This document shows positions 30,481 through 33,479 of a stretch of 64,000 nucleotides of DNA, one piece after another (position 1 is the stretch's first letter; every line of letters starts with the position of its first letter). A program made the position numbers and the translations under genes. The notes beneath the pieces are model-generated. The model was not told where the DNA came from, made no database searches, and worked only from the letters and a program-made list of their open reading frames with translations. The stretch is from Chloroflexia bacterium SDU3-3 (GTDB taxonomy: Bacteria; Chloroflexota; Chloroflexia; Chloroflexales; Roseiflexaceae). The stretch lies in assembly GCA_009268125.1 (NCBI GenBank), contig WBOU01000012.1:62001-126000 (forward strand), written 5' to 3'.

Positions 30481-30597
30481 ATCTCCAAGCCGCTAGAAAG
30501 ATCGATCACGCTCACACGATCTGGCGCTGCTTTTTTTGTGCGAAGTACCTGCTGCCGGGCGCGCTGCTGCGCCTGGCAGGGGCGAGCGAGGAGATAT

Positions 30598-31071
30598 ATG
30601 GCTGGGAAGCAGAGCGACGCGGTTGTTGCCGATAACCGTAAGGCACGGCACGACTACTTCATCGAGGAGAGCTACGAGGCTGGGCTGGCCCTCACCGGCA
30701 GCGAGATTAAGTCCGTGCGTGATGGCCGCATCAACATGCGCGGCGGCTATGCCCGCGTGCAAAATGGTGAGATCATCATGTACGATGTGCATATCTCGCC
30801 CTACGAGCAGTCGGGCATTTACTTCAACCACGAGCCGACCAGGGCGCGCAAGCTGCTGCTGCACCGCCGCGAGATCAGCCGGATCGCCGGGCTGGTCGAT
30901 CGGCAGGGCTACACGCTGGTGCCGCTGCGCATCTACTTCAAAGGGCGCCGCGCCAAGCTTGAGCTGGGGGTCGCCAAGGGCAAGAAGCTCTACGACAAGC
31001 GTGAGGATATCGCCAACCGCGAGGCCAAGCGCGACATCGACCGCATGATGAAGGCGCGCCGCTACGAGTAG
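30598..31071 (+). CDS. smpB: SsrA-binding protein SmpB
   Basis: A 157-residue partner of tmRNA in ribosome rescue. The OB-fold body starts ADNRKARHDYFIEESYEAGLALTGSEIKSVRDGRINMRGGYARV. The basic C-terminal tail DKREDIANREAKRDIDRMMK enters the decoding centre. ATG 30598 has GAGGAG nearby; an in-frame ATG at 30538 lacks one. It is followed by a strong terminator shared with the convergent regulator gene. Confidence 0.95.
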   Translation: MAGKQSDAVVADNRKARHDYFIEESYEAGLALTGSEIKSVRDGRINMRGGYARVQNGEIIMYDVHISPYEQSGIYFNHEPTRARKLLLHRREISRIAGLVDRQGYTLVPLRIYFKGRRAKLELGVAKGKKLYDKREDIANREAKRDIDRMMKARRYE

Positions 31072-31990: not shown

Positions 31991-32020
31991 TTGACGTCAG
32001 AAAAAGCCGGTGGCTATAAT
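31991..32020 (+). promoter_or_regulatory. Promoter of the AAA+ ATPase transcript
   Basis: TTGACG (31991-31996), an 18-base spacer, TATAAT (32015-32020). The leader is about 155 bases and contains a 37-codon ORF. Just upstream, AACAGGGAATCGT and ACGATCCTGTT (about 31944-31971) form an imperfect inverted repeat that could bind a regulator. Confidence 0.7.
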
Positions 32021-32182: not shown

Positions 32183-33406
32183 ATGGATCCAATTCCGAGC
32201 GGTATGTCACTGGCGGTACGCGGGACCGCAAATCCCCTCGATGAGGTTGAGCGCAAGCTTCACAACGCGATTTTTGGGCAAGATCGCGCGATCGAGGCGC
32301 TTGTGCGTGTGCTGAATCGCGCCCGCTTTGGCTTCTCTGCCGGGAATGCGCGCCGCCCGCGGGCAACGCTGCTGTTCCTTGGCCCCACTGGCGTTGGCAA
32401 GACCGAGACCGCGCGGCGGCTGGCCCAGCTGCTGCGCCCCGATGGCGAGGCCTTCCTGAAGGTCGACTGCTCGCTGTTCAGCCAGGGCCACGAGGTATCG
32501 GCGCTCGTCGGTGCCCCGCCCTCATACGTTGGGCGCGATCAGAAGCCGCTGCTCAACCCCGATCTGATCGAGCAGGAAAACAGCGTGGTGCTCTTCGACG
32601 AGATCGAGAAGGGCCAGCCCGAGCTGTGGAACCTGCTGCTGCAGATCATGGAAGACGGCGAGATCCTGCTGCTGAACGGCGGGCGGCGGGTGTCGTTCCA
32701 GAACAGCATCGTCATCCTCACCACCAACGTTGGCGCGAAAGAGATGGTTGACTTCCTGGATCGGCGCACGATCGGCTTCCGCACAGCGAACAAGGATGTG
32801 GAGGCCACCGGCCAGCAGATCTACCAGATCGGCTTCGAGGCGCTGCAGAAGGTCTTCCAGCCCGAGTGGATCAACCGGCTCGATGAGATCATTGCCTTCC
32901 GCCCGCTCTCAAGCGACACGCTGCGCGCCGTGTTCGACCGCATGATCGACGAGGCCAACGAGCAGTATGCCCGCCACGGCGTGCAGATCGAGCTGACCCC
33001 GGCGGCCAAAGAGTACGTGCTGCACAAGGGCTTCGAGCCGCGATTTGGTGCGCGCCCGCTGCGCCAGCAGCTGCTCAAGCAGATCGAGGCCCCTCTGGCC
33101 GATCTGATGGCCTCGGGCGGCGTGCCCGAGGGCAGCCGAGTGCTGGTGTCGTACACTGGCGTGGATGAGCACGCGAAGGCGCTTGAGTTCTACTATGTGG
33201 ATGCGCCCGAGCTGCTGGCCCAGGCCCAGGAGCTGCGTGCCGCCGAGGTTGGGCGGATGGGCAGCGGCACGAACGATATGCCCCAGCAGCCCAGCGTTGG
33301 CCTCTCGGCCGATCGGGGCAACTCGATCGAACACACGGCCAACCCGCTGGGCCGGGGCCCACGGCTGACGCCGGGCGGGCGGCGCAACAGCAGCGACCGC
33401 AGCTAG
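32183..33406 (+). CDS. Single-ring Clp/HSP100-like AAA+ ATPase
   Basis: A 407-residue ATPase equivalent to only the second AAA+ module (D2) of ClpA/ClpC plus the C-terminal small domain. It lacks the N domain and D1. Walker A GPTGVGKTE (about 62-70), Walker B SVVLFDEIEK, sensor 1 ILTTNVGA, arginine finger region FQPEWINRLDEI, and sensor 2 PRFGARPLRQQLLKQIEAPLA are all present. Between sensor 1 and the arginine finger is RRTIGFRTANKD, in the place of the [LIV]G[FL] loop by which ClpA/C/X dock on ClpP. The tail is disordered. ATG 32183 has GAGG upstream; earlier in-frame starts lie in the leader. A ClpP-dependent unfoldase role is inference. Confidence 0.85.
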   Translation: MDPIPSGMSLAVRGTANPLDEVERKLHNAIFGQDRAIEALVRVLNRARFGFSAGNARRPRATLLFLGPTGVGKTETARRLAQLLRPDGEAFLKVDCSLFSQGHEVSALVGAPPSYVGRDQKPLLNPDLIEQENSVVLFDEIEKGQPELWNLLLQIMEDGEILLLNGGRRVSFQNSIVILTTNVGAKEMVDFLDRRTIGFRTANKDVEATGQQIYQIGFEALQKVFQPEWINRLDEIIAFRPLSSDTLRAVFDRMIDEANEQYARHGVQIELTPAAKEYVLHKGFEPRFGARPLRQQLLKQIEAPLADLMASGGVPEGSRVLVSYTGVDEHAKALEFYYVDAPELLAQAQELRAAEVGRMGSGTNDMPQQPSVGLSADRGNSIEHTANPLGRGPRLTPGGRRNSSDRS

Positions 33407-33423
33407 CCAGATGACCCTACCAA

Positions 33424-33468
33424 CCAAGAAGGCCGCCCGATATACTCGGGCGGCCTTCTTGGTTTTTT
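33424..33468. terminator. Strong bidirectional terminator
   Basis: A perfect 17-bp stem (33424-33440 with 33446-33462, loop TATAC) is followed by TTTTTT. It separates the convergent ATPase and PfkB genes. Confidence 0.92.
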
Positions 33469-33479
33469 GCGCGGCGCTG

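Follow-up and report, generated by a model that had tools for sequence, protein, structure and literature searches.

A stand-alone single-ring Clp-type AAA+ protein of the Chloroflexales with a candidate ClpP-docking loop

Double-ring Clp unfoldases are usually thought to require both rings or added domains. The presence or absence of the ClpP loop distinguishes ClpC from ClpB, as laid out in the cited part of PMC10149685, which also presents ClpI of Actinomycetota as a recently recognised further Clp class, with one form carrying the LGF loop and one form devoid of it. The cited sections of both PMC10149685 and PMC12521514 describe such loops as docking into pockets of ClpP; in the latter paper, the counterpart in S. 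aureus ClpC (AGF) enters a hydrophobic one. The portion of PMC7343390 relied on here reports that the isolated NBD2 of ClpB and Hsp104 and the isolated NBD of Skd3 are inactive and without ATPase, and that the NBD2 of ClpB does not hexamerise. Therefore, self-assembly of a lone D2-type ring is not a given. Searches of an open-access library listed no paper that deals with the gene described here, nor any on a ClpA/C-type unfoldase that combines a single ring with a ClpP loop.

The window analysed is a stretch of 64,000 nucleotides from Chloroflexia bacterium SDU3-3 (Chloroflexales, Roseiflexaceae; contig WBOU01000012.1, positions 62,001 to 126,000), and harbours a gene for a Clp-type protein of 407 residues (Table 1). 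The first-pass annotation, made from the letters of the DNA, had described its product as a D2-type single module without N domain or D1, and the profile searches agree with it. Besides the two subdomains of the module, which begins about 18 residues from the N terminus, Pfam detected no N domain, D1, zinc finger, ankyrin or other Clp-type domain in the 407-aa protein. In the NCBIfam ClpA model, which has 734 positions, residues 17-323 align to 446-733 and so cover the D2 half alone, with 247 bits vs a full-length cut-off of 993. The matches to ClpA and ClpB are confined to the last 40%, and lie by far below every full-length cut-off. The annotation had also excluded ClpX, and rightly: the ClpX equivalog scores 38.4 bits vs a cut-off of 359, the zinc domain is absent, and the protein is positioned outside the ClpX clade. 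The HslU equivalog likewise stays below its cut-off (29.3 vs 362 bits).

Similar to ClpX, the protein has a single AAA+ ring, an IGF-type ClpP loop, the pore Y-V-G and a predicted ATP-driven unfolding activity; unlike ClpX, it lacks the zinc-binding N domain, its large domain is of the ClpA/B type, and its genome encodes a ClpX of its own. With the D2 of ClpA and ClpC it shares the fold (Z of about 30), 36-40% identity and an [IL]G[FL] loop at the same place, but it lacks their N domain and D1, possesses K-x-D-C..HE instead of their R-x-D-M, and falls outside the double-ring D2s. ClpB is a double ring with an M domain and without ClpP loop, whereas the Chloroflexales protein is a single ring in which the loop is present. 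Skd3 (human CLPB) also consists of one D2-type ring that is not of the ClpX type, but is only 23% identical, and its ankyrin domain is missing from the Chloroflexales protein. To our knowledge, Skd3 lacks a ClpP-type loop, which the Chloroflexales protein possesses. ClpI is double-ringed with an N domain in the cited part of PMC10149685, unlike the single-ringed Chloroflexales protein, where the loop was present in every orthologue read. Other short AAA+ Clp-like proteins, DolB and PDC-M37B of PADLOC, gave partial matches to the AAA+ large domain (81.5 and 87 bits), but only from about position 130 of the models and over half the module; no defence genes were found among the adjacent genes examined. 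The best PHROG match was phrog_4871, a phage Clp 'ATP-dependent protease', which aligned with its D2 half (456-748 of 764) but whose profile has the length of a double-ring protein. The PHROG search with the Chloroflexales protein yielded no separate PHROG of single-ring members.

Table 1. Features of the single-ring gene and its flanks (positions in the window)
Feature	Positions	Strand	Evidence
Single-ring Clp-type AAA+ CDS, 407 aa	32183..33406	+	ATG at 32183, stop ends at 33406; Pfam content
AAA_2 large subdomain, residues 58-236	32354..32890	+	PF07724, 128 bits, cut-off 27
D2-small subdomain (ClpB_D2-small), residues 242-322	32906..33148	+	PF10431, 68.7 bits, cut-off 21.9
Walker A GPTGVGKT, residues 67-74	32381..32404	+	G67-K73 invariant in orthologues; G67, G70, G72, K73 invariant in 71 rows
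Single-ring signature K93-V-D-C96-...-H-E104	32459..32494	+	motif counts in orthologues and phage groups
Substrate-gripping pore loop GAPPSYVG, residues 110-117 (role by homology)	32510..32533	+	Y115 invariant in 42 orthologues and 71 rows
Walker B VVLFDE, residues 135-140	32585..32602	+	D139, E140 invariant in 71 rows
IGFRT, candidate ClpP-docking loop, residues 197-201	32771..32785	+	identical in 42/42; flexible in model
Arginine finger R232, INRLDE (role by homology)	32876..32878	+	invariant in 71 rows
Sensor 2 GARPLR, residues 289-294 (role by homology)	33047..33064	+	R291 invariant in 71 rows, R294 in 42
Extra C-terminal helix, residues 342-360	33206..33262	+	model, block pLDDT 89-98
Disordered tail, residues 361-407, conserved P370-S371	33263..33403	+	pLDDT mostly <55; P370 in 42/42, S371 in 40/42
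Sigma-70-type promoter TTGACG-18-TATAAT, 5' of gene	31991..32020	+	consensus match 11/12
Intrinsic terminator, hairpin + T run, between gene and convergent pfkB-family gene	33425..33469	+	16-bp stem, -33.6 kcal/mol, z -7.7

The start codon is preceded by GAGGAAACC, with a Shine-Dalgarno-like GAGGAAA, and most orthologue starts align near here. The promoter scan of the region gave three sites, vs a mean of 0.3 in shuffled sequence. The terminator was absent from the output of the consensus scan and is supported by the folding energy of its hairpin. Given this promoter and this terminator, the single-ring gene is probably monocistronic. Its 5' neighbour is read from the other strand and encodes an OmpR-type response regulator, with smpB beyond it; its 3' neighbour is the convergent pfkB-family gene. 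The smpB gene, encoding a trans-translation factor, is located at 30538-31071 of the window, 1.1 kb upstream, an arrangement seen only in Roseiflexaceae-type loci. Neither the search for the CIRCE heat-shock element nor the Rfam search within the window returned a match.

Within the protein, RRTIGFRTANKD spans residues 194-205, and its IGF (residues 197-199, window 32771-32779) follows sensor 1 (N182) and precedes the Arg-finger helix P227-E-W-I-N-R232. At the equivalent position, E. coli ClpA has IGL; in the own genome, the tripeptide is IGL in one ClpC-type protein, IGF in the other, and LGF in ClpX, and the loop of ClpB is short and lacks it. The IGFRT stretch is the same in each of the 42 distinct orthologues, which derive from 57 intact loci of the 60-genome search and the wide scan, with identical rows counted once and the fragments L070 and L071 excluded. 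The proposal that an IGF/LGF-type ClpP loop stands at the expected place is thus borne out by the position in the alignment and by this conservation. Among the 31 reference D2s of the tree set, the tripeptide is present in 17 and absent in 14. All 14 D2s of the ClpB lineage have a short loop without tripeptide, and they form a single branch including E. coli ClpB (95/92). The labels for presence or absence were taken from the loop itself and the loop columns were kept in the tree; therefore, only the branching of the 14 loop-less D2s counts as independent. Judging from its architecture and conservation, we consider it reasonably probable that the protein is a stand-alone single-ring Hsp100 of ClpA/C D2 type, which would dock on ClpP and couple unfolding to it.

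The structural model built on 71 rows (pLDDT 86.2, pTM 0.81) superseded an earlier one built on 26 orthologues (pLDDT 63.8). Residues 198-201 are flexible in it, flanked by helices 185-198 and 205-224, and this predicted inter-helix position of IGF is as expected for a docking loop. The C-terminal region had been annotated as a disordered tail, which holds from about residue 361 onwards, but residues 342-360 are modelled confidently as a helix. The 71 rows include phage single-ring and double-ring proteins, and with the catalytic residues invariant across them, nothing in the alignment suggests a dead enzyme. The top PDB matches of the model were ClpC from ClpC-ClpP complexes and the NBD2 of ClpB. 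Skd3 chains also have a similar fold (Z 29.5, with an rmsd of 4.9 across 320 residues and 23% identity), which fits a ClpP-independent remodeller or disaggregase, where a Skd3-like D2-type ring frees clients without degradation and uses the loop for another contact. According to the part of PMC7343390 cited, the single D2-type ring of Skd3 powers disaggregation when given supporting extra parts, and neither a dedicated ClpP nor an adaptor was found to go with the gene in the Chloroflexales. We regard this alternative as unlikely, since IGFRT is fixed in the orthologues while the ClpB-lineage reference proteins are without the tripeptide, and no ankyrin or other N-terminal domain is present here.

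Orthologues scoring above 500 bits were found in 46 of the 60 related genomes, and the next matches, at about 225 bits, are ClpC/ClpB-like. The gene was absent from the other fourteen, namely all eleven g8 genomes, both g2 genomes, and a single g14 genome that is incomplete. Among 400 Chloroflexota genomes, it was present in 38, all of the own order (38/40 of the order, 0/360 of the others). The annotation had suggested a search for the same stand-alone gene in other Chloroflexota; it is found there, limited to one order. Two short AAA_2 frames in one genome (G071) were rejected as further stand-alone rings, their loci being cut at one side and their loops of the ClpB type. The scan of the genomes of 84,980 species returned 31 loci, 28 of them in records named as Chloroflexales-type organisms or Chloroflexota, two distant, and one in a 'Gracilibacteria' bin. 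The scan used exact 8-residue words and outside Chloroflexota detects close relatives only; single-ring members may therefore exist elsewhere in bacteria. The 'Gracilibacteria' locus (L070) is an 80% identical copy on a MAG contig, probably a mis-binned contig of the Chloroflexales. In plasmid and phage records, the best scores shown, 222 and 229 bits, are at ClpC/ClpB-like levels only.

Pairwise identity between orthologues is 64-87%. The protein is 70% identical to its orthologue of Herpetosiphon aurantiacus, and the ClpX of G033, which belongs to the same order (family code f3), gives 68%. With its single copy and a conservation about that of ClpX, the single-ring gene looks like a housekeeping gene, and its order-wide presence together with these identity levels indicates a conserved core gene and not debris. 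In two genomes (G050 and G036) the match spans one in-frame stop (TGA and TAA, respectively), possibly a sequencing error or a shortened tail. The extent of the protein equals the D2 half of ClpA/ClpC, as would that of a recent truncated ClpC copy surviving by chance or as a pseudogene. However, this origin is refuted by the identity and invariant active site maintained in nearly all genomes of the order, and by the trees, where in the 83-row tree without ClpX the Chloroflexales proteins occupy their own long branch (100/100). The protein is firmly not a recently truncated ClpC, and the probability left to such an origin is negligible.

In the tree of D2 modules, the Chloroflexales proteins form their own branch (98/97), away from ClpC and ClpB of the same order. 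In the 83-row tree, where L286 was entered as phSRb and L261 as phDR, one split (97/80) sets the single-ring rows, 13 of Chloroflexales and 21 of phages, apart from the remaining 49. When ClpX was used as the root, all 27 double-ring D2s formed one clade (97/94) with the single-ring protein outside, and the six ClpX rows formed a clade that excludes it (100/100), in agreement with the exclusion of ClpX by the annotation, which had proposed such a phylogeny. The Chloroflexales and phage single-ring groups join at 93/52 in this tree, which is not firm; the root rests on a distant outgroup and the branches are long, which makes the exact branching order uncertain. The earlier description of the protein as the D2 half of ClpC/ClpA therefore stands for its architecture, given the extent of the NCBIfam match, but not for its descent, as the clade of double-ring D2s leaves it out.

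The trees also bear on the possibility that the protein is an accessory subunit, a D2-only partner joining or stacking on ClpC or ClpB rings and modulating their activity. Earlier work quoted in the cited part of PMC7343390 found that separate halves, combined in trans, can reconstitute ClpB, and ClpB and two ClpC-type proteins are encoded in the same genome. However, the identity to the own ClpC and ClpB D2s is 37-39%, no closer than to other D2s, the protein lies outside the double-ring clade, and its own active site is complete including the Arg finger, all of which makes the accessory role improbable. The own genome also contains a degenerate double-ring Clp frame of 1076 aa (L004, C12:153713-154216), about 28 kb past the window, with WGF at the loop and a very long branch.

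The closest single-ring relatives of the Chloroflexales protein are proteins of phage contigs. The search of viral contigs with the orthologue alignment gave at least 80 loci, 78 of which have at least 328 residues before the match; among the matches listed, L168 and L184 are single-ring. Following up from these two, more single-ring genes were found, on contigs as large as 463 kb. Most of these genes share 39-60% identity with L168 across the matched stretch. In a second group of single-ring phage proteins, comprising L278, L281-L285, and many of L320-L399, the N-terminal part is longer by about 100-130 residues; the signature and the loop are shared. One phage locus (L261) was rejected as double-ring, being a single-ring Clp protein with an intein-like insert at about ORF residues 130-580, just before its PPGY pore loop. 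Conversely, L286-L289 were rejected as single-ring: of the four, L286 was read and proved to be a D2 piece that follows an intein-like stretch at Walker A. L286 was left out of the signature counts. The phage family had no match in the 400 Chloroflexota genomes, which by itself carries little weight.

Six columns (K93, C96, E104, L148, W149, and L164) are common to both single-ring groups and were found in 0/28 viral double-ring D2s. The pattern K-x-[DN]-C-[SAG]-x-[FY]-x3-H-E is present in 41 of the 42 orthologues, 25/26 phage single-ring proteins, and 6/6 members of the second phage group, counts that include near-copies and rows of the alignment from which the motif was derived. K-x-[DN]-C..HE is absent from all 35 cellular D2s, from all 27 ClpX, and from two sets of 78 and 34 viral double-ring proteins. 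Scans of DNA are the more independent tests. Among the 400 Chloroflexota genomes, the signature matched in 38, once each, and these are the same 38 that hold the orthologue; the reversed control pattern had no match in any Chloroflexota genome listed. In viral contigs it matched at least 120 stretches; 80 loci were readable, of which 11, judged by contig name, are on contigs found in the earlier searches, and 75 of the 80 are AAA+ by their Walker motifs. Among the matches listed, with near-identical viral contigs included in the counts, all 75 AAA+ genes are single-ring by reading frame alone, and [ILVMFY]G[FY] stands at the loop place in 73 of them; the remaining two are cut short by the end of the stretch, ahead of the loop. 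This count speaks against the Skd3-like remodeller as well. The signature lies near the pore loop and was picked regardless of the docking loop; the association of the tripeptide with a single ring therefore ranks as the strongest indirect sign that a ClpP-related function is shared.

The Chloroflexales protein combines all three features of the group, namely one ring, K-x-[DN]-C..HE, and an [ILVMFY]G[FY] loop. It is probably an overlooked type of ClpP motor and not a broken half of a known one, because it is retained order-wide with its docking loop and related one-ring motors occur in many phages. More tentatively, it may belong to an unnamed class of ClpP-docking unfoldases, single-ring, without N domain, and of ClpA/C-D2 type, placed outside all double-ring D2s and marked by K-x-[DN]-C..HE. 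Such a class, a core gene in Chloroflexales and widespread in phages, could be a living sister group, with one ring, to the D2 lineage and, next to ClpX, the second natural one-ring design of a ClpP motor.

The genome of strain SDU3-3 encodes two ClpP proteins, ClpB, two ClpC-type proteins, and ClpX beside clpP. In both ClpPs, the catalytic Ser and His align with those of E. coli ClpP, and so do the pocket positions, which we take to be of the F112/L114/L189 type. A dedicated ClpP paralogue as partner was rejected, as the gene is present in genomes with one ClpP (three genomes of genus g17; G043, G049, G053) and absent from genomes with two (most of g8); the number of ClpP paralogues does not predict its presence. 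No conserved operon or adaptor gene was found linked to the single-ring gene across families, the neighbours differing by family. The annotation had suggested that an adaptor may bind through the tail, in which one short stretch (P370-S371) is conserved. Upstream of the gene, Roseiflexaceae-type loci have what we take to be smpB and the response regulator, and many Chloroflexaceae/Oscillochloridaceae loci presumably a TPR, zinc-finger or membrane protein, often with a SufR-like regulator and suf genes downstream; the neighbours at the Herpetosiphon locus are presumably an SH3-type protein and rsgA. In four Chloroflexaceae/Oscillochloridaceae loci (L055, L060, L061, and L063) the gene is near the SufR-like regulator, with the suf genes for iron-sulphur assembly downstream.

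As a ClpP-coupled unfoldase, the single-ring protein would form an ATP-driven homohexamer, in whose pore the Y115 loops would grip a polypeptide and pull it through. The IGF loops would hold the ring on the host ClpP tetradecamer, and unfolded substrates would be fed in, similar to ClpX although without the zinc domain. Because the N domain is absent, substrates may be chosen by the own pore loops and/or by the C-terminal helix and the P-S motif of the tail. If this is true, a natural lone D2-type ring, encoded by a core gene and provided with a ClpP loop, would represent a minimal motor able to feed ClpP. It would also offer a test of the roles of the D1 and N domains, and bear on the origin of two-ring enzymes.

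Judging from the phage relatives, viruses may use the same one-ring design to steer host ClpP. Genes of the ClpP family were present on 4 of the 26 phage single-ring contigs (two of them strong matches) vs 9 of the 23 double-ring contigs (eight strong), and the contigs may be fragments. With no enrichment beside the single-ring genes, co-occurrence with phage ClpP was rejected as support. The cited portion of a survey of jumbo phages reports that some of them carry ClpP, ClpA, and ClpX (PMC7824862). On one phage contig of 103,528 bases (L231), about 3.5 kb separate the single-ring gene from a full-length ClpP (274.7 bits).
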